A stretch of DNA of 32,985 nt, taken from the IMG/VR virus record IMGVR_UViG_3300043446_000701, positions 1 to 32,985 of that record; one strand, 5' to 3'. Shown piece after piece: positions 464-17,612 of this stretch. Numbering within the stretch: the first letter of the stretch is position 1; each line of letters opens with the position of its first letter. Under the pieces are notes generated by a model, which was given only the letters and a program-made list of their open reading frames with translations, made no database searches and was not told the origin of the DNA. The position numbers and the translations under genes are program-made. Origin of the DNA: a virus.

Positions 464-841
464 CTATGCGCGACGGATTCCACGGGGGTCTTCGACCACC
501 GCTTCCACCGTGTCGTCGTTGATGATGCGGAACTCCCGACCGTGGATGACCACGCGGGTGCCGGAATACGGACGCGTCAGAACAAAGTCACCTTCCTTGC
601 ACCATGCTCCGGTGGGGAAGCGTTCTTTGTCTGCATAGCAGAGATCGCCCATCTTGATAACGAAGAGAACGACCGTAGTCTGCTCTTCAATCCGTTTGGT
701 GTCGTCTGACTTGATGATGCCGCCCTCAAACTCTTCTTCTACGTGCGGAACGGCACACAGCATCCGATAGCCTTTCGGCTCAGGCAGTAGTTTGGCCTTC
801 GCAGCCTCTTCCTGTGTCTTCTCTACGTTGATGCTACTCAC
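464..841 (-). CDS. GroES-like phage co-chaperonin
   Basis: This 125-residue protein aligns by eye with the GroES fold. PKGYRMLCAVP (22-32) corresponds to the first strand. VEEEFEGGII (34-43) matches the mobile loop with its GGI signature, which contacts GroEL. GDLCYADKERFPTGAWC followed by KEGDFV (65-87) matches the GroES 'VGDxV' region. The end, INDDTVEAVVEDP (107-119), resembles the last strand. It starts with GTG at 841 after a strong GGAGGA site, and its start overlaps the upstream gene's stop as GTGA. Phage co-chaperonins such as T4 gp31 replace or modify host GroES for capsid folding. No GroEL gene is in the window, so it would act on host GroEL. The placement between portal and putative scaffold supports a head-assembly role. 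Confidence 0.82.
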   Translation of the reverse strand: MSSINVEKTQEEAAKAKLLPEPKGYRMLCAVPHVEEEFEGGIIKSDDTKRIEEQTTVVLFVIKMGDLCYADKERFPTGAWCKEGDFVLTRPYSGTRVVIHGREFRIINDDTVEAVVEDPRGIRRA

Positions 842-7611: not shown

Positions 7612-7635
7612 ATGATTAATTACGTAATTAATCAT
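7612..7635. repeat. Perfect 24-base A/T-rich palindrome
   Basis: Arms ATGATTAATTAC and GTAATTAATCAT, fully self-complementary. It marks the left edge of the GTTCC-rich region. It could be a dimeric protein site or a melting or cruciform element. It appears only once in the window. Confidence 0.9.
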
Positions 7636-8071: not shown

Positions 8072-8100
8072 TTGACTCATACGTACACTTTTGCTATACT
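8072..8100 (+). promoter_or_regulatory. Early promoter, P2 type, copy 1
   Basis: TTGACT (8072-8077), 17-base spacer, TATACT (8095-8100), a near-consensus sigma-70 promoter. It shares ATACGTA in the spacer and ATACTG.GAG just downstream of the -10 with the copy at 9400-9428. Transcription should begin near 8107, about 20 bases before the zinc-finger gene. Confidence 0.88.
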
Positions 8101-8125
8101 ATTCCCATACTGGGAGATCAAATCC

Positions 8126-8371
8126 ATGACGCAACAAACAACACTTTCCACCCATGGGTGGAAAACGAAACGTGACTTGTGTGTGAGGTGTGACGAAGCG
8201 GTGGATGCTAGGCGATGGGCGCTTGGCATCCACCTGTGTATGCAGTGCGGTGAGGAACAAGCAAAGCGCCGCGTACGCTGCGTCGTTCCGCTACACAAAT
8301 CAAACTACATCTTGGTCACGGACTTGGAAGACTTGAAGGGCATCAACAACAAAGGAGGATTAGTGCGATGA
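8126..8371 (+). CDS. Small zinc-ribbon-like protein (81 residues)
   Basis: The ATG at 8126 has GGGAG ten bases upstream and lies about 20 bases past the P2 start. Cysteines C19, C22, C38 and C41 (CVRC...CMQC) make a four-cysteine zinc ribbon followed by a basic stretch (EEQAKRRVR), suggesting DNA or RNA binding. Oddly, a copy of the dispersed palindrome (8145-8164) lies inside the coding sequence and encodes LSTHGWK, so any protein bound there would sit within the gene. The frame is open far upstream, but that part is the gene-free region. The stop overlaps the next ATG as ATGA. A regulatory role is inference. Confidence 0.75.
   Translation: MTQQTTLSTHGWKTKRDLCVRCDEAVDARRWALGIHLCMQCGEEQAKRRVRCVVPLHKSNYILVTDLEDLKGINNKGGLVR
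8145..8164. repeat. Dispersed palindrome, copy 3, inside a coding sequence
   Basis: Arms TTTCCACC / GGTGGAAA around CATG, about 40 bases past the expected P2 transcription start and 19 bases into the zinc-ribbon gene. Confidence 0.85.
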
Positions 8372-9031: not shown

Positions 9032-9403
9032 ATGTCAAATACCAATAGAGTTTTATCCGTCGAATCGTTCCAAGACTACTGTGCTGCAATGTCTGGCACA
9101 TCTTTCCAAGGTCAGATCAATATCCGATACGGCGACCTTGTGCGCTTGTTTGGCAAGCCGCTGCCGGGTGATGACTACAAGACCCAAGCCGAATGGCTAC
9201 TGCGCTTCCACGACTACGACGATGGTCGATACATCGACGTAACCATTTATGACTGGAAAGTGGGCGTGGCGTATTGCGGTGAGGAACATGGCATCCCGGC
9301 CACTGCCGTGACCACGTGGCACGTGGGTGGACGGAGCAAAGATGCGCTCTACGTACTGCAAGACTGGCTCGCCATGACTAACTTTCATTCTTTAGTTGCT
9401 TGA
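9032..9403 (+). CDS. Conserved-looking phage protein, unknown (123 residues)
   Basis: ATG at 9032 after ACGAGGTG. The core YGDLVRLFGKPLPGDDYK, AEWLLRF and VTIYDWK matches a pattern I know from many unrelated phages ('LFGxP...GDxYKTxAEWxxxF...TIYDWK'), where it is annotated only as hypothetical. The end GGRSKDALYVLQDWL would be a helix. The stop at 9401-9403 lies inside the -35 box of the next P2-type promoter. Confidence 0.8.
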   Translation: MSNTNRVLSVESFQDYCAAMSGTSFQGQINIRYGDLVRLFGKPLPGDDYKTQAEWLLRFHDYDDGRYIDVTIYDWKVGVAYCGEEHGIPATAVTTWHVGGRSKDALYVLQDWLAMTNFHSLVA

Positions 9404-9428
9404 CTTATACGTAAACCTTTAGTATACT
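9400..9428 (+). promoter_or_regulatory. Early promoter, P2 type, copy 2
   Basis: TTGACT (9400-9405), 17-base spacer, TATACT (9423-9428). Spacer ATACGTA and downstream ATACTGAGAG are shared with the copy at 8072. The -35 overlaps the stop of the preceding gene. It is the only good promoter I see ahead of the long coupled operon that begins at 9510. Confidence 0.88.
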
Positions 9429-9470: not shown

Positions 9471-9490
9471 TTTCCACCCATGGGTGGAAA
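9471..9490. repeat. Dispersed palindrome, copy 5 (loop CATG)
   Basis: Arms TTTCCACC / GGTGGAAA, about 36 bases past the expected start of the P2 transcript and 19 bases before the ATG at 9510. In the RNA it could form an 8-base-pair hairpin just ahead of the ribosome site. Confidence 0.88.
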
Positions 9491-9509: not shown

Positions 9510-10418
9510 ATGTCCATTCAACTATCGAAGCCCAAGAGTCTGATCGACCTGTCCACCTGCGCGGTGTTGGTCAACGTGCGAACGTCCGTGTGGACTGGCG
9601 TACAGACCGACGACGAGGTGAGCAACGAGATCACCACAATGAAGAATGCCGATTCCGAATCGGGGAAGTTTGCCAAGCGTTTGCTTGCCGGTGATCGGGA
9701 ACACAAGAAACTCGTCAATCACCGTCAGACCGTACGCAACTGGGTCAAGCGCAGAACATTCCCATGGGCAGGGCAGTGGAACATCTTGCCAACGGTAACC
9801 CTGCCGCAGTTCATGGAGGAATACAAAGCACTGGACAAAGAGCGCGAGGAGTTGCTTGAAGCGTTCTTACAGTCATACCCCAACAAGGTCAGCGACATGG
9901 CGTTCAAACTCAACGGGATGTTTCGCCGTGAGGACTACCCCACTGCCGATGAACTGCGCGACAAGTTCACCATGACTTTGTATACGGCAGAGGTGCCGCA
10001 GGGTGACTTCCGTGTGCAGATTGCCCACGACCTTGCCGATGACTTGACCAATCACTTCAACAAGCAAGCCCAATCCACCATCGACAACATGCTCAACCAA
10101 CAAATCAACCAATTGGTCGAGGTCATGCGGTCGATATCTCACACGTGCGGCGAGAACGTGGTCGAGCGTGAAGACGGTTCGCTCAAGGTGAGTCGCGGTC
10201 GCTTGCATACTGAAACACTCAAGAAAGCACTGCAATACTGCGACACGTTTAAGCAATTCAATCCTGCCGGGGACTCTCGACTGGATGCGATACGCAATGA
10301 TCTGGAGCGTGTCTTAATCAATGTAGACATGGACGAGTTGAAGAAGAACGACTCGACCCGTGCCTATGTGAAAGCGGAGGTCGATGACATCCTGTCGAAG
10401 TTTGGGTTCGGTCAATAA
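9510..10418 (+). CDS. DUF3150-like protein, partner of the MoxR/VWA genes
   Basis: Start at ATG 9510 (MSIQLSKPKS) with GAGGAG upstream. An in-frame ATG inside the palindrome at 9480 would add ten residues but has no ribosome site. The segment VNVRTSVWTG (21-30), followed by a long helical body, resembles DUF3150, a family often encoded beside MoxR/CobS-type ATPases and VWA proteins. The body (60-230) is rich in helices and polar residues; the end holds a coiled stretch (LDAIRNDLERVLINVDMDELKKND). No catalytic motif is visible, so an adaptor or substrate role next to the AAA+ ATPase is likely. The family call rests on motif memory and gene order. Confidence 0.65.
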   Translation: MSIQLSKPKSLIDLSTCAVLVNVRTSVWTGVQTDDEVSNEITTMKNADSESGKFAKRLLAGDREHKKLVNHRQTVRNWVKRRTFPWAGQWNILPTVTLPQFMEEYKALDKEREELLEAFLQSYPNKVSDMAFKLNGMFRREDYPTADELRDKFTMTLYTAEVPQGDFRVQIAHDLADDLTNHFNKQAQSTIDNMLNQQINQLVEVMRSISHTCGENVVEREDGSLKVSRGRLHTETLKKALQYCDTFKQFNPAGDSRLDAIRNDLERVLINVDMDELKKNDSTRAYVKAEVDDILSKFGFGQ

Positions 10419-10422
10419 CACT

Positions 10423-10440
10423 TTCCACCCGTGGGTGGAA
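10423..10440. repeat. Dispersed palindrome, copy 6 (loop CGTG)
   Basis: Arms TTCCACC / GGTGGAA around CGTG, in the 44-base gap between the DUF3150-like and ATPase genes, 22 bases before the ATG. No promoter is seen in the gap, so this copy most likely acts on the RNA or on passing polymerase. Confidence 0.85.
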
Positions 10441-10462
10441 CCACTAACACGAGGAACTACAC

Positions 10463-11581
10463 ATGTCTAAATCAGCGACGATCAATATCACGCCATCCGT
10501 TGACATCAACGAGGCAGCCCGGCTCATTGAGTTGACTGGTGAGACGGTGACATACGTCATCCAGTCAAGCCCCGGACAGGGCAAGACTTCCATCTTGAAG
10601 TTACTTGCCGAGCGCAACGGCGACAAGTGGCGTAAGCCGGGGGAGTACTTCCCCGATGACAAGTACGAGTACGTCTACATCGACGGCGGTACGCTGCGCG
10701 AGAACGATCTCACAATGTATATGCCAGACCGTGAGACGAAGACGATGGAGCAGTATCCGACTGCGCTCATCAACTTCAAAGACCCGCGACCCAAGGTCAT
10801 CATGATTGACGAGATGCTCAAACTGCCCAAGTTGTTGAAGCCGTTGGTCACTCGACTGATTCTTGAGCGGTACTTGGGTGACAAGCCGCTGCCCAAGGGG
10901 AGCAGGGTGTGCGGTACGTCTAACTATGTCAGCGATGGAGTGAACGACACCATCGAGGCACACGTTGGCAATCGACTGGGCTTGCTCAACATGCGTGGTC
11001 CCACGGTGAAGCAGTGGGTGGCGTGGGCGACGGACAACGGGATTAGTGCCTTGACCCGTGCGTGGTGTTCGCTCAATGCGTCAGCGTTTGCGTCATACAA
11101 GACAGAGGACGTATCGGGTAACCCGTACGTGTTCAACCCACGCTCGACCAATGTGTCGTTTGTCTCGCCCCGCTCGTTGGAGAAGAACGATGCCGTGGTC
11201 AAGACATGGCAGGTGCTTGGACTTGACGTAGCCAAAGCAGCGATGTGTGGCATCGTCGGTCAAGCCGCAGCAGAGTCGTTCTCTGCGTTCCTCAACATGG
11301 AGAGTGATCTGGTTAAGCCATCCGACATATTCAAAGACCCTGAAGCCGTTCGCATACCGGAGAAACCTGCCGCGCTCTTTATGACGATGTTCAATCTGGT
11401 CGATGCCATCACGACCAACGACGAGATGACGAGTGCGATGCAGTTCGTTCAACGTGCGACAACGAAGGAGTTGCAGTCGATCTTTGTGTCGATGATCTAC
11501 GCTCCGCGCTTGCACAAGTTGGGCAAGAACAATGCAGTGGTCAATGCGTTCGTCAAGGCGAATCCGGAGTTATTGGTCTGA
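10463..11581 (+). CDS. MoxR/CobS-like AAA+ ATPase
   Basis: A 372-residue AAA+ protein. Walker A is SSPGQGKTS (35-43), Walker B is KVIMIDE (111-117), and GTSN (151-154) is sensor 1. MoxR/CobS-type ATPases form rings and act with VWA-domain partners to remodel proteins or insert metals. The next gene encodes exactly such a VWA protein, so the pair is expected to work together. The start ATG follows GAGGAA. No CobN-like chelatase subunit is in the window, so a cobalamin role is not supported. Confidence 0.88.
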   Translation: MSKSATINITPSVDINEAARLIELTGETVTYVIQSSPGQGKTSILKLLAERNGDKWRKPGEYFPDDKYEYVYIDGGTLRENDLTMYMPDRETKTMEQYPTALINFKDPRPKVIMIDEMLKLPKLLKPLVTRLILERYLGDKPLPKGSRVCGTSNYVSDGVNDTIEAHVGNRLGLLNMRGPTVKQWVAWATDNGISALTRAWCSLNASAFASYKTEDVSGNPYVFNPRSTNVSFVSPRSLEKNDAVVKTWQVLGLDVAKAAMCGIVGQAAAESFSAFLNMESDLVKPSDIFKDPEAVRIPEKPAALFMTMFNLVDAITTNDEMTSAMQFVQRATTKELQSIFVSMIYAPRLHKLGKNNAVVNAFVKANPELLV

Positions 11582-11596
11582 TCACGAGGTGCAATC

Positions 11597-12781
11597 ATGC
11601 AAGAAGCCATTAAGAAACTAGAAAAGGCGACGGTCGATCTCATCCGTCATCCAGAGACATCTGCGTATGCCGGTGTGTTGGTGATGGGCAAGACGACCGT
11701 GGTCGATAACGTACCGACTGCGTGTACCGATGGTGTCAACGAGCGATATGGCGAAGCGTTCCTCAACTCGCTCATGCTGCCGGAGGTGCGCGGTCTCAAG
11801 TTGCACGAGGGCTTGCACAAAGTCTTCAAGCACACTGTGCGGGGTCTGCCGTATTGGAAGAAGAACCCGAAACTCGCCAACATCGCGGCAGATTACGTAG
11901 TCAATGATGTGATCATGAACATCAAGGACAAGGAGTTCATCAAGTTACCGAAAGGCGGCTTGTATGACCCCAAGTTCCACAACTGGTCATTCCCCGAAAT
12001 CTACCGTGCCTTGGAGCAGGAAGAACAAGGCGGTGGTGGCGGGGGAGGTGGCGGTGGTGGCACGGGACGAGGTGAGCCGCTCGATGAACATGACATGAGC
12101 AATGCTGAACAGATGTCGGCAGAGGAGATGAAAGAGTATGTCGAACAAGTCAATGAAGCCATTCACCAAGGCGGGTTGTTGGCATCGCGTTTCGGTCAGA
12201 AGTTACCCCGCTCGATCACCGAGACGTTGCAGCCCGAGATTGATTGGACGACCGCCCTGCATGAGTTTGTATCTAGCATTGCTCAAGGCAACGATGACCA
12301 TACGTACCGCAAGTTCGACAAGCGGCTGATCATCGATGACATCATCAACCCCGGTGTCATCAGTGAGAAGGTGGGTGACATCGTGGTGGCGATTGATACG
12401 TCGGGCAGTATCGGTGGGACATTGCTCAACGAGTTCGCGGCTGAACTGCAAGCGATCTGTGAGCAGGTCTCGCCGGATGCACTGCGCGTGATGTGGTGGG
12501 ATACGAAGGTGCGAAGCGAGCAGGTGTTCACTCCAGAGATGTTCAATGATATCTCCAAGTTGCTCAAGCCAGCGGGCGGTGGCGGCACTGAAGTCTCATC
12601 TGTGAGCCGTTACATGATCGAGCGTAACTACAAAGCCGACTGCATGATCGTGTTCACAGACGGTCATGTCGAGGACGATGTGAAGTGGGATGTCATGTGC
12701 CCGACCTTGTGGCTCGTGACAAGTAATCGTGGGTTCACGCCGCCCCGTGGCGGCAAGATGGTCAAAGTAGAGGAGGTGTGA
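11597..12781 (+). CDS. Metallopeptidase-like plus VWA domain protein (CobT/DUF2201-like)
   Basis: A 394-residue two-domain protein. The N-terminal domain has a zinc-protease-type HEGLH (70-74) followed by NIAADYVVND (95-104), the layout of DUF2201-type putative metallopeptidases. Residues 145-155 are eleven glycines in a row, then an acidic helical linker. The C-terminal VWA domain has a complete MIDAS: DTSGS (267-271), the threonine of GGGTE (328-332) and TDG (354-356). Together with the upstream AAA+ ATPase it resembles CobS/CobT or MoxR-VWA remodelling pairs. Both metal sites look intact. ATG at 11597 follows CGAGGTG. The substrate is unknown; a phage-protein maturation or host-targeting role is speculative. 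Confidence 0.85.
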   Translation: MQEAIKKLEKATVDLIRHPETSAYAGVLVMGKTTVVDNVPTACTDGVNERYGEAFLNSLMLPEVRGLKLHEGLHKVFKHTVRGLPYWKKNPKLANIAADYVVNDVIMNIKDKEFIKLPKGGLYDPKFHNWSFPEIYRALEQEEQGGGGGGGGGGGTGRGEPLDEHDMSNAEQMSAEEMKEYVEQVNEAIHQGGLLASRFGQKLPRSITETLQPEIDWTTALHEFVSSIAQGNDDHTYRKFDKRLIIDDIINPGVISEKVGDIVVAIDTSGSIGGTLLNEFAAELQAICEQVSPDALRVMWWDTKVRSEQVFTPEMFNDISKLLKPAGGGGTEVSSVSRYMIERNYKADCMIVFTDGHVEDDVKWDVMCPTLWLVTSNRGFTPPRGGKMVKVEEV

Positions 12782-12782
12782 G

Positions 12783-12932
12783 GTGGCAGAGGTGGACGAA
12801 AAAATCCGTGCAGAGGTGGAAGAATTACTTGAACGACTTACTGCCAGTGAGAAAAGCGATCTGTTGGAGTCTTTGCGTGAGCGTTGGAAAAACGAGCGTA
12901 AAGAACTGAAATCCATTTACCAAGAGGTGTGA
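12783..12932 (+). CDS. Small charged helical protein (49 residues)
   Basis: GTG at 12783 with GAGGAGG upstream, one base after the VWA gene's stop. The stop at 12930-12932 is one base before the next ATG. The sequence is almost entirely helical and charged (AEVEELLERLTASEKSD, then ESLRERWKNERKELK). Its exact fit in the gap, and the strong ribosome site, argue that it is translated. It may be a small subunit of the neighbouring complex, by position only. Confidence 0.7.
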   Translation: MAEVDEKIRAEVEELLERLTASEKSDLLESLRERWKNERKELKSIYQEV

Positions 12933-12933
12933 C

Positions 12934-13971
12934 ATGTCTAAACGATTCAGCAAGTCTTCCGTGTTATCCGCAACTGATCTGTTTGCTCCGTGGGTGCCGG
13001 TCACGGCACAGACCGCGCTCAAGCAGTCTCCGTTGTATCTGCCGTTCTTGAAGATTTACTCCAAGACCAGACTGCAATGCGTAGAGGTGAGCGTCAATAC
13101 AGATAACAGCCACATGCATACCGTGCATGTGGGTACGCCGAGCAATCTACGTGTGGCGTACTTGGGCATGATGGGAACGAAGTTCCGGGCTTGTGTGTAT
13201 GACTCACCGGACTCCTCGTCGCGTAACACTACGCACGTGGGTACGTCTGACAAGTGTATGTATCTGGTCAATCGTTTGCTTACCCCGGCGACTAGCCCCG
13301 GCGCGACGTTCGACAATGCACTAGGCAGGGCGTTGAACTTCCACAATCAGTTGGCCAGTGACATGGGCAACCTTGTGACCAACACGCTCAAGGACGATGC
13401 CCCGGTGAGGTATACCCCGACGAGCGACATCAACGGAGAGTCTATTGGTTGGCTGATCAAGCGTTACTTCAACGATGTGGCCGAGGCAGATATCCCCTCT
13501 GGCGTACGCACTGCTATTGACAAGGCGTACAAGTCGCTGCGCTCTACGGCATCGAATATGACGCTCAACAAGACCCGACTTGCAGAGTTCTTTGATCGAG
13601 AGAAGTGGATGTTTGGCTACCGACATGACGTTGGCTACTTTGTTGGAGCCGCGCACTTTAAGCAGACCTGTGAGAACTACAACGATTGGGAGTTCCGATT
13701 CCCTGTCGATGTAAGCGTTCAAAACTGCACTGTGACTGCGCCTATCCAACACTACAAGACGTTCCAGAGCATCCCCGATGATATGCGTAGGGAATTACTT
13801 GCGTCTGTGGCGATGACGAAGATGTATCTGGAAGGTGGTACAGAGCAGGTGGAGTACGCTGACCCCGAACGATTGATACCGCAGAAGACGGGTGCGTTGC
13901 TTGACGCTAATGCGTGTGTGGATCGCATCTTTGGTGGCGGTGGTATGTGGATGTTGGTAGATAGGATATGA
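12934..13971 (+). CDS. Unknown protein next to the MoxR/VWA block (345 residues)
   Basis: ATG at 12934 with AAGAGGTG upstream. A soluble mixed alpha/beta protein with no recognisable catalytic motif. The N-terminal half has many short polar strands (VEVSVNTDNSHMHTVHVG; LRVAYLGMMGTKFRACVYD), the middle is helical, and the end carries a glycine run (IFGGGGMWMLVDRI). The stop overlaps the nuclease gene as ATGA. Given the coupling, it may belong functionally with the ATPase/VWA genes or with the nuclease. I do not recognise the family. Confidence 0.75.
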   Translation: MSKRFSKSSVLSATDLFAPWVPVTAQTALKQSPLYLPFLKIYSKTRLQCVEVSVNTDNSHMHTVHVGTPSNLRVAYLGMMGTKFRACVYDSPDSSSRNTTHVGTSDKCMYLVNRLLTPATSPGATFDNALGRALNFHNQLASDMGNLVTNTLKDDAPVRYTPTSDINGESIGWLIKRYFNDVAEADIPSGVRTAIDKAYKSLRSTASNMTLNKTRLAEFFDREKWMFGYRHDVGYFVGAAHFKQTCENYNDWEFRFPVDVSVQNCTVTAPIQHYKTFQSIPDDMRRELLASVAMTKMYLEGGTEQVEYADPERLIPQKTGALLDANACVDRIFGGGGMWMLVDRI

Positions 13972-15640: not shown

Positions 15641-15753
15641 ACTGGCTCAAACGCTTTTTACGATGGCTTGACGAAGGTCGGCGCGAGTCATGGCGGCGTG
15701 TACCGCCTCCGGTGTGGGCAGCGAAGCGTGGGACAGGGAGAGAATACTGGTGA
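15637..15753 (+). CDS. Tiny basic protein (38 residues)
   Basis: ATG at 15637 overlaps the methyltransferase stop as ATGA, and its own stop overlaps the next GTG as GTGA. GCAGGAGG precedes the ATG. The product MNWLKRFLRWLDEGRRES... is an amphipathic, arginine- and tryptophan-rich peptide. The exact double coupling is the main evidence that it is translated. It may serve mainly to couple translation, or bind a membrane surface. Confidence 0.6.
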   Translation: MNWLKRFLRWLDEGRRESWRRVPPPVWAAKRGTGREYW

Positions 15754-17612
15754 GCGAGGACAAGAAACAGCAGACCCTACCGGAGTTTGCACAGGCCATT
15801 TACAAGAAGGGCTTTGAGGAGGCCGAGAAAGGTAACTATGACGAGGCCATTGGCATCCTCAACAACATCAACGCCGCCCTACCTGTGATGACCGCTGCAC
15901 AACTGCAAGCGGGGCGGTGCCACTGGGAGATGCATCGTTGGAGTCTGGCACGGCAGCACTTTGAAACGGCTGTACGGCTTGAACCCAACAATGACGATGC
16001 CGGGTGGACGGTAGGTCTGCTTGCCTTGCAGATGGGTGACTTCAAAGCCGGGTGGGAAGGCTACGAGCGACGGTGGGGCAGCAAGGCGTTCAAGTCTCCC
16101 AAACTCCACACCAAGCACCCGCAGTGGGAGCGAGGCAAAGGTCTGAAGCGTCCGGTTGTCTGGTGTGAGCAGGGCATTGGCGATCAGATTCTGTATGCAT
16201 CGCTGCTTGAAGCACTGGCACGGGAGGTCGATGAGGTCACCGTGATGATTGATCTACGCATGGTCAATCTCTTTCAGCGTGGGTGCAGGGCGAAGAACGT
16301 CAAGTTCCTTTCGCATAACTCGCGGATCAAGATGTCCGAGCATGACTCACACTTGCCGATAGCCTCTCTGGCGCGACACTTTGTTAAGTCAATTCGTGAC
16401 ATTACTCCGCATGTTTCGTTTGGCTACGTGAAGGCTGACCCCGAGCGTGTGGCTCTGCTACGCAAAGAGTATGGCTTCCGCGAGGACGAGTTCGTGGTCG
16501 GGCTGTGTTGGACAAGCACTGCGCCTATCATTGGTACGCACAAGTCTGTCCCGCTGAAAGATTTTCTGCCGATCCTTGATATGCCGCACGTGAAGTTCAT
16601 CAACTTGCAGTACGGCGAGGCACAGAAAGAAGGCGAGGGGTTCCACCCAAGTCTCACCACTACGCATGTCGATACCTTCCTCGACATGGAGAACGTGGCT
16701 GCGCTCATGGAGATATGCACCGTGATCATCTCGCCATCGTGCGCGACCGTGCATCTGGCCGGGGCGATGGGCAAAGATGTATTGCTCTTGGATGCGAACA
16801 AACTTTGGTATTGGAACAACCGTGTAGGCAATGAAAGCCTCTGGTACTCCGGTGTCAAAATTTTTCAACGCGAGAACATGAACGCTCCGTGGGACATGCA
16901 GTTGCGCCAAGTTAAGAACGAACTTGAGATTATCTTGGGGCAGCGTACGAGGAATAAGCAGACGTTTGTATTCTTCCACGTGGGGCAGGACATCTCGTAC
17001 CCACAGAAGATGGTCAAGTCCATCCTGCGCTACAACCCCGACGCAGACATCATCATGTGTACCGACACGGATACACCGGATGTGATGGGCATCACTGATC
17101 GTTACGAGATGCACGTTGACCGCGCCGAACTCTTGTATGCCCGTAACACTGCGTATGCCAATCTGAAACTAGATTGTCCCGCGCTGTATCTCGACACCGA
17201 CATGCTTATCCAGAGCGAGATCGATGTGGAGGACATACTGAACGGCACAGAGGTTGCGTTCTGCAAGCGTTCGTTCAACCGCGAGGACATGTTCAACATT
17301 GAGCAGCGCGGCATCAAGTTTCCCGAATACGAGGGCAAGTCCATCGGGGAGGTTTATCCCTACGTGGGCTGCATGATCGCTACACGGAACAACAAGGTGT
17401 GGGAAGAACTCCTCGCTATCTTTGACAGCCTAGACCCGAAGTTCAAGAAGTGGTACGGCGACCAAGAAGCCCTGCGTATCTACGCAGAGAAGTACGGGTG
17501 CGCGGAAGCACCGGAATCAATTTATGGTTGCTTACCGGAACACAGGTCAGACGAAGCGAAGATTCTTCACTTCAAAGGGCCGAGCCGAAAGAAACTATTT
17601 GAGGGCGTATGA
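15750..17612 (+). CDS. TPR, GT-B and GT-A fusion: double glycosyltransferase
   Basis: A 620-residue protein from GTG 15750, chosen because of the GTGA overlap and GGGAG upstream; the in-frame ATG at 15690 lies inside the preceding tiny gene. Residues 10-105 are TPR-like repeats (AEKGNYDEAIGILNNI; FETAVRLEPNN). Residues 130-395 look like a GT9/heptosyltransferase-type GT-B domain, with EQGIGDQI (140-147) and SPSCATVHLAGAMG (328-341). Residues 405-620 look like a separate GT-A domain with DTD (482-484) in the metal-sugar site. TPR-GT fusions are known in bacteria; the added GT-A domain is less usual. The acceptor is unknown: capsid or tail protein, modified DNA base or host glycan are all possible. 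Confidence 0.78.
   Translation: MSEDKKQQTLPEFAQAIYKKGFEEAEKGNYDEAIGILNNINAALPVMTAAQLQAGRCHWEMHRWSLARQHFETAVRLEPNNDDAGWTVGLLALQMGDFKAGWEGYERRWGSKAFKSPKLHTKHPQWERGKGLKRPVVWCEQGIGDQILYASLLEALAREVDEVTVMIDLRMVNLFQRGCRAKNVKFLSHNSRIKMSEHDSHLPIASLARHFVKSIRDITPHVSFGYVKADPERVALLRKEYGFREDEFVVGLCWTSTAPIIGTHKSVPLKDFLPILDMPHVKFINLQYGEAQKEGEGFHPSLTTTHVDTFLDMENVAALMEICTVIISPSCATVHLAGAMGKDVLLLDANKLWYWNNRVGNESLWYSGVKIFQRENMNAPWDMQLRQVKNELEIILGQRTRNKQTFVFFHVGQDISYPQKMVKSILRYNPDADIIMCTDTDTPDVMGITDRYEMHVDRAELLYARNTAYANLKLDCPALYLDTDMLIQSEIDVEDILNGTEVAFCKRSFNREDMFNIEQRGIKFPEYEGKSIGEVYPYVGCMIATRNNKVWEELLAIFDSLDPKFKKWYGDQEALRIYAEKYGCAEAPESIYGCLPEHRSDEAKILHFKGPSRKKLFEGV

Follow-up and report, generated by a model that had tools for sequence, protein, structure and literature searches.

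Components of the Locus

IMG/VR record IMGVR_UViG_3300043446_000701 was analysed over its entire length of 32,985 bases (hereafter the window), which is probably a fragment of a podovirus-like phage of aquatic bacteria. On its plus strand, an earlier note had singled out a five-gene coupled block at 9510–13971 (here genes A to E), and the five reading frames, with their coordinates and motifs, are indeed all present. According to our comparisons with viral and bacterial relatives, four of these genes are co-inherited, co-evolve and form one real unit: A (DUF3150-related), B (a MoxR/midasin-type AAA+ ATPase, i.e., an ATPase associated with diverse cellular activities), C (a metallo-domain joined to a von Willebrand factor A, or VWA, domain) and E (from an unnamed family). 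The remaining gene, D, is not a partner, and the coupling does not stop at E, since the gene 3' of E overlaps it (ATGA at 13968).

Gene C (11597–12781, plus strand; 394 residues) consists of a DUF2201_N metallo-domain connected by a glycine-rich linker to a DUF2201/VWA domain, and falls in PHROG 1314 (the N4 gp25 family), as judged from Pfam, PHROGs and residue comparison; its Pfam scores are 82.2 bits for DUF2201_N (gathering score 23.2) and 65.1 bits for DUF2201 (gathering score 26.4). The earlier note had read in it a HEGLH motif (residues 70–74; 11804–11818, plus strand) and a complete metal ion-dependent adhesion site (MIDAS), i.e., DTSGS (residues 267–271; 12395–12409, plus strand) completed by T331 (12587–12589) and D355 (12659–12661), and both readings hold across relatives: HExxH, N95, D99 and the MIDAS do not vary among 148 distinct C proteins, including a few plasmid ones (148/148 for HExxH, D267, S269 and S271; 147/147 for T331 and D355). 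As 80 of the C loci were retrieved with a pattern covering N95-D99-N103, these three residues are biased there, while HExxH and the MIDAS are free of that bias. Moreover, the 52 C proteins retrieved through A also keep HExxH, N95, D99 and the MIDAS, the exceptions being one N103H and one gap at T331/D355. C-type proteins are present in 555 cultured phage records, and the HExxH region of C is weakly matched by MJ1213, the metallopeptidase selecase. The N-terminal domain of C is a zincin-like domain that may have peptidase activity. The label “HNH endonuclease” carried by PHROG 1314 and RefSeq was considered for C and rejected, no HNH family being found among its Pfam hits. For the family as a whole (PHROG 1314, with N4 gp25 at 11164–12306 of NC_008720), this label looks wrong as well, its members being DUF2201 metallo-VWA proteins with invariant HExxH and MIDAS.

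Gene B (10463–11581, plus strand; 372 residues; PHROG 1297, the N4 gp24 family) was assigned to the MoxR/midasin-type AAA+ ATPases by profile, structure and residue comparison. Walker A (SSPGQGKT, residues S35–T42; 10565–10588, plus strand), Walker B (D116-E117), sensor 1 (N154), the arginine finger and sensor 2 are all found, as expected of the MoxR class, with R171 and R237 both present. The Walker motifs are intact, as the earlier note had stated, and remain so in homologues, where K41, D116, N154, R171 and R237 are each kept in 139/139 proteins and E117 in 136/139. The best solved relatives of B in the PDB are the AAA modules of midasin (E-value 3e-35). On these alignments, the HExxH/D99 site, the MIDAS and the ATPase residues are strictly constrained in phages.

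Gene A (9510–10418, plus strand; 302 residues) encodes a DUF3150-related helical protein adjoining B and C in phages and plasmids. Its start at 9510 suits a GAGGAG ribosome site, an alternative in-frame ATG at 9480 falling within a palindrome (see below). The DUF3150-like character proposed in the earlier note stands only indirectly: A scores below the Pfam threshold for PF11348 (12.2 bits, gathering score 24.9, E-value 0.11), yet phage MinM2 has an annotated DUF3150 protein to which A is homologous (E-value 2e-11), and the plasmid homologues of A match DUF3150 weakly. On sequence comparison, A is thus best described as DUF3150-related through its relatives rather than as a DUF3150 member. A scan based on A returned 343 viral relatives, and its profile matches a plasmid protein encoded between AAA+ and VWA genes at an E-value of about 1e-47. 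No VMAP-type or iSTAND-type family was matched by A at an E-value of 1 in Pfam, no iSTAND profile being among those compared.

Gene E (12934–13971, plus strand; 345 residues) was followed by iterated profiles, bait scans and co-evolution. Direct searches with E return close relatives only. The iterated profile converged on 94 open reading frames in 94 loci (some of which overlap in contig), all of them on the strand of C and 3' to it. A scan baited with a distant subfamily of E recovered 23 loci, and C is present in 20/20 of those having sequence upstream of E. Many loci without E are occupied by a distant relative, E' (profile–profile probability 92%). In many phages, a protein X (about 340 residues) directly follows C and a protein S (about 120–140 residues) follows E, the order A-B-C-X-E-S being seen at 36 distinct loci; the window phage has neither X nor S. 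Nothing worth naming was found for X, E or S in Pfam, PHROGs, NCBIfam or PADLOC. In 50,697 cultured phage records, E, E' and X' have no match. Two candidate relationships were rejected: A and X are not paralogues according to a negative comparison, and the MinM2 genes after C have no profile match as homologues of E or X.

An AlphaFold2 model of E built from 51 sequences has a mean predicted local distance difference test (pLDDT) score of 89 and a predicted template modelling (pTM) score of 0.83, an earlier model from five close sequences having reached a pLDDT of 31. Foldseek found no match to this model in the PDB at an E-value of 0.001, and the best hits of VIA-align (a frataxin-like fold at Z 6.2 and the DNA-binding domain of T4 MotA at 5.2) were dismissed as lying in the noise range. 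Against BFVD, two unnamed viral models were retrieved, one of them clear by E-value (2e-9), with TM 0.4–0.5. Finally, a motif LPxxIxxKLAxL...VGxRxxxxFWV is common to the C-termini of E', S and S', and to those of a few further small proteins, mostly at most 10 residues from the chain end in E' and S', and the window E ends loosely like it. Loci bearing the motif include L041, L061, L040 and others; searching for it in cultured phages gave nothing significant.

Linkage and Co-Evolution of A, B, C and E

The earlier note had suggested surveying phage genomes for the co-occurrence of all five genes. A and B accompany 128 of the 148 distinct C genes from viruses, all three sharing a strand in every case; these loci were retrieved through A, C or E, so that the counts describe homologue-bearing loci and not phages overall. 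The usual viral order is A-B-C, mostly with short gaps, with B-C-A and B-A-C as variants, and E stands downstream of C as described above. Gene D (12783–12932, plus strand; 49 residues), which had been proposed as a helical partner, is the part of the block that does not survive this survey: it is a non-conserved small gene without counterpart in relatives, and its product has no convincing family match. The gap between C and E (12781–12934) is a variable slot, each relative having a different small gene there (e.g., loci L003, L005, L006 and L007).

The pairwise distance matrices of the A, B, C and E proteins are strongly correlated with one another (r 0.77–0.94), whereas the distances of the product of the adjacent VRR-NUC gene correlate with theirs only at r 0.35–0.47 and those of the DUF3310 product at r 0.52–0.56, which indicates that neighbours are exchanged while the cassette stays together. 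For the DNA polymerase, r reaches 0.81–0.85 (computed from only 10–29 phages), which means that common descent also plays a part. As a third component of the cassette, A is genuine, and so is E, co-evolving with A, B and C, as a fourth, in line with the unnamed partner that the earlier note had placed there.

A Related Trio on Plasmids

On bacterial contigs and plasmids, nearly all from Burkholderiales, homologues of the first three genes occur in the order B-A-C in 56/57 loci, adjacent and on the same strand, and E, X and S are not present. A PRTRC-type ThiF gene lies in the flank of 27/57 bacterial loci; B-A-C is often found near PRTRC genes (a plasmid cassette), as in L019, L021, L208 and other Burkholderiales loci.

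In 3/57 bacterial loci (L241, L242 and L247, from Paraburkholderia contigs), C is devoid of H70, E71, H74, N95 and D99 together and retains the MIDAS, and a few further bacterial copies show single or partial losses at the metal site. The joint loss of HExxH, N95 and D99 supports the existence of one metal site, of which D99 is the putative third ligand. Since the MIDAS is kept where the metal site is gone, the VWA part can persist without it, and the remodelling part may work without a metal site in those three copies. Loss of the HExxH in relatives, which the earlier note had named as evidence against its proposal, is therefore confined to a few plasmid-type copies, the motif being invariant in phages.

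Promoters, Palindromes and Genome Context

A sigma-70-like promoter (TTGACT-17-TATACT; 9400–9428, plus strand), detected by promoter scan and kept in relatives, lies ahead of A. The earlier note had ranked it as the strongest; the promoter is there, but it ties with another one at 8072–8100. The two are near-duplicates of equal strength, each with a palindrome 72–74 nucleotides downstream, and both are conserved in relatives that are 84% alike, the stretch at 8072–8163 (plus strand; palindrome at 8146–8163) being a second promoter–palindrome leader. Over the window, the scan yielded fewer sites than in shuffled sequences (7 vs. 14.7).

Instead of the two palindromes reported earlier, we counted six copies of an 18-bp palindrome, TTCCACCCRTGGGTGGAA, between 6690 and 10440 (0.1 expected), conserved in relatives. 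Among the sites returned by the palindrome search, TTCCACCCATGGGTGGAA at 9472–9489 has its centre 30 nucleotides upstream of the start of A, and a copy with a GT centre lies in the leader of B (10423–10440). An RNA hairpin was considered and rejected, single-strand folds being not clearly better than shuffles (z about −1), and a DNA dyad is the reading favoured. Among 10 other cassette phages in which a 12-mer palindrome occurs three or more times, a palindrome of the phage's own is centred −59 to +17 nucleotides from the start of A in nine, and is also found at the start of B in four (expected 1–6% for each). From these repeated phage-own palindromes at the starts of A and B, we infer a phage-specific dyad-binding regulator. 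Elsewhere in the window, one TTCCACCCRTGGGTGGAA copy apparently falls within the beginning of the coding sequence of a zinc-ribbon-like small frame near 8127, and a perfect 24-bp palindrome, ATGATTAATTACGTAATTAATCAT (7612–7635), stands directly 3' of another copy, ahead of a T-run.

The minus strand of the window encodes the portal and the large terminase, and the plus strand a family-A DNA polymerase, a helicase, an exonuclease and a primase/helicase. The cassette A-B-C-E lies upstream of the genes for DNA polymerase, helicase and primase, portal and terminase being encoded on the other strand. Pelagibacter phage HTVC027P and phage DSL-LC04 have the closest terminases (about 50% identity), and by this gene the window phage is not N4-like. 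Other observations are a GroES-like co-chaperonin gene (464–841, minus strand) and a 640-residue protein (15690–17612, plus strand) weakly matching one unnamed PHROG; no Rfam family and no tRNA were found in the window.

Proposed Function and Alternatives

We consider it reasonably probable that A, B, C and E make up one machine, driven by ATP and equipped with dedicated partners, which remodels and perhaps clips its target during the replication phase. In NorQ-NorD, the AAA+ ring is plugged by the VWA domain, whose MIDAS holds an acidic target residue, and the linker to the N-terminal domain twists as ATP is hydrolysed (PMC9976466, PMC13036017). The layout of C is that of the NorQ-NorD VWA protein, with the HExxH domain in the N-terminal position, which leads us to read the cassette as a remodeller powered by ATP, one domain of which would cut or reshape with the help of a metal. 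By analogy with NorQ-NorD, RavA-ViaA and midasin, B would form the ATPase ring, in the pore of which the VWA half of C would dock, its MIDAS metal gripping an acidic residue of the target, while the zincin-like half, carried on the glycine-rich linker, would bind metal and probably cut or reshape the target. A could serve as an adaptor or scaffold between B and C, and E (plus X and S in other phages) as the phage-side partner, i.e., either a target-choosing adaptor or the target itself. The machine would most likely act on a protein complex met by phages and conjugative plasmids alike, and not on the virion.

Several observations weigh against this proposal. B and C occur without detectable A in N4, CRP-7, phiFa and PA5oct, so that A either is not universal or has diverged past recognition. 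E is found neither on plasmids nor in the cultured phage records searched, and the linkage counts come from loci retrieved through the cassette's own genes. Finally, only G71, S105 and M294 of E are conserved at 90% or more. So few conserved positions would suit a binding partner or a substrate better than an enzyme, and, combined with the lack of a convincing fold match, they make the role given to E a guess.

That only the pair homologous to N4 gp24/gp25 matters, with A and E as passengers, would agree with the four phages just cited, in which no E is detectable either. This explanation is already disfavoured and strikes us as very improbable, given that the co-evolution of A and E with B and C is far tighter than that of the adjacent nuclease gene, and that A remains with B and C on plasmids. 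A role in virion assembly, in which the pair would act as chaperone and processing peptidase for structural proteins (as reported for the tail of Acidianus two-tailed virus), has more in its favour: Iyer et al. (2021, PMC7824862) propose it for the MoxR and metallopeptidase–vWA pairs of group 2.2 jumbo phages, the record of the PA5oct homologue of B bears a note of electrospray ionisation tandem mass spectrometry (ESI-MS/MS), and virion proteins are encoded near gp24/gp25 in some N4-like roseophages (PMC4193335). However, plasmids make no capsids yet carry the B-A-C trio, which argues against a pure virion-assembly role, and the block of the window stands among replication genes, away from the strand that encodes portal and terminase. 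Replication-phase remodelling or the disarming of a host factor is thus more likely, and we regard virion assembly as rather unlikely; for their part, N4 gp24 and gp25 are middle genes (PMC4193335).

Counter-defence, in which the machine would inactivate or cleave a host defence protein, with E and X as variable recognition parts, is less probable than the replication-phase machine, but deserves more credit than the other alternatives. Phages and conjugative plasmids, which share the trio, both face host defences; E diverges fast (mostly 10–20% identity to the window E across phages); and MoxR–vWA systems with a third component and peptidase parts are known among conflict systems (PMC7159879, PMC12839542). 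Against this, no PADLOC defence model was matched, no link to known anti-defence genes was seen, and both the core residues and the order of the genes vary very little. Metal insertion, i.e., a chelatase-like or NorQD-like loading of a phage or host enzyme with the HExxH domain as metal carrier, could appeal to MoxR–VWA pairs such as NorQD, which insert metals (PMC13036017), and to the metal bound by HExxH in known families. We nevertheless hold it to be improbable: no recognised metalloenzyme gene was seen travelling with the block, and no CobN-type large subunit was found in the window or in the records of 12 relatives (several of which are fragments), positive controls being detected in five genomes. 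An aerobic cobaltochelatase (CobNST) is rejected on the same ground, and the earlier note, for which association with CobN would have counted against a MoxR–VWA machine, was right to warn against an annotation as cobalamin synthesis.

A broader and distinctly speculative extension of the remodelling machine, on which we would not insist, is that A-B-C-X-E-S is an unrecognised machine of uncultivated phages, that the C-terminal motif of E, S and related small proteins is the handle by which the MoxR–VWA–metalloprotease grips them for remodelling or clipping, and that the plasmid B-A-C is its capsid-free relative. E, X and S are in any case three protein families outside Pfam and PHROGs that recur in many aquatic phages.

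Comparison with Known Systems

In the literature searched (mostly non-subscription papers), we found no account of a cassette of three or four components, of their co-evolution, of the trio on plasmids or of the families E, X and S. NorQ-NorD, RavA-ViaA, CbbQ-CbbO and midasin share with the cassette an AAA+ ring with a VWA/MIDAS partner. The VWA partners in RavA-ViaA, CbbQ-CbbO and midasin are not known to have a HExxH domain, and for that of NorQ-NorD none is described (PMC9976466, PMC13036017). The targets of all these systems differ. The ternary VMAP/iSTAND conflict systems (Kaur et al. 2020, PMC7159879) resemble the cassette in that they combine a MoxR protein and a third component with a vWA protein to which an effector-type domain is fused, but A matches neither VMAP nor any other Pfam family above threshold, and the cassette is borne by phages and plasmids instead of forming a host immunity locus.

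Closer to the cassette, the pair of group 2.2 jumbo phages has the same two-protein architecture, with a metallopeptidase domain on the N-terminus of the vWA protein; the passage describing it names a pair only, with no word of A, of E or of a trio on plasmids (PMC7824862). The Burkholderiales plasmid trio has homologues of A, B and C, but is arranged as B-A-C where the cassette has A-B-C; it lacks E, X and S, and some copies have lost the HExxH site. As the metal site is strictly constrained in phages and dispensable in some plasmid-type copies, the dependence of the components on one another, cutting by the HExxH domain and the role of E become directly testable. Finally, B and C are homologues of N4 gp24 and gp25 (PHROG 1297 and PHROG 1314), the core pair of Schitoviridae, so that the B–C pair is already known from other phages, although A, X, E and S are not detectable in N4. 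These two genes are among the 14 core genes of the N4-like phages, with no assigned function (PMC4193335), and databases label gp25 homologues as “HNH endonuclease”; our comparison places this pair of a large phage family in what is often a larger co-evolving cassette, of which the helpers A and E are newly recognised parts.

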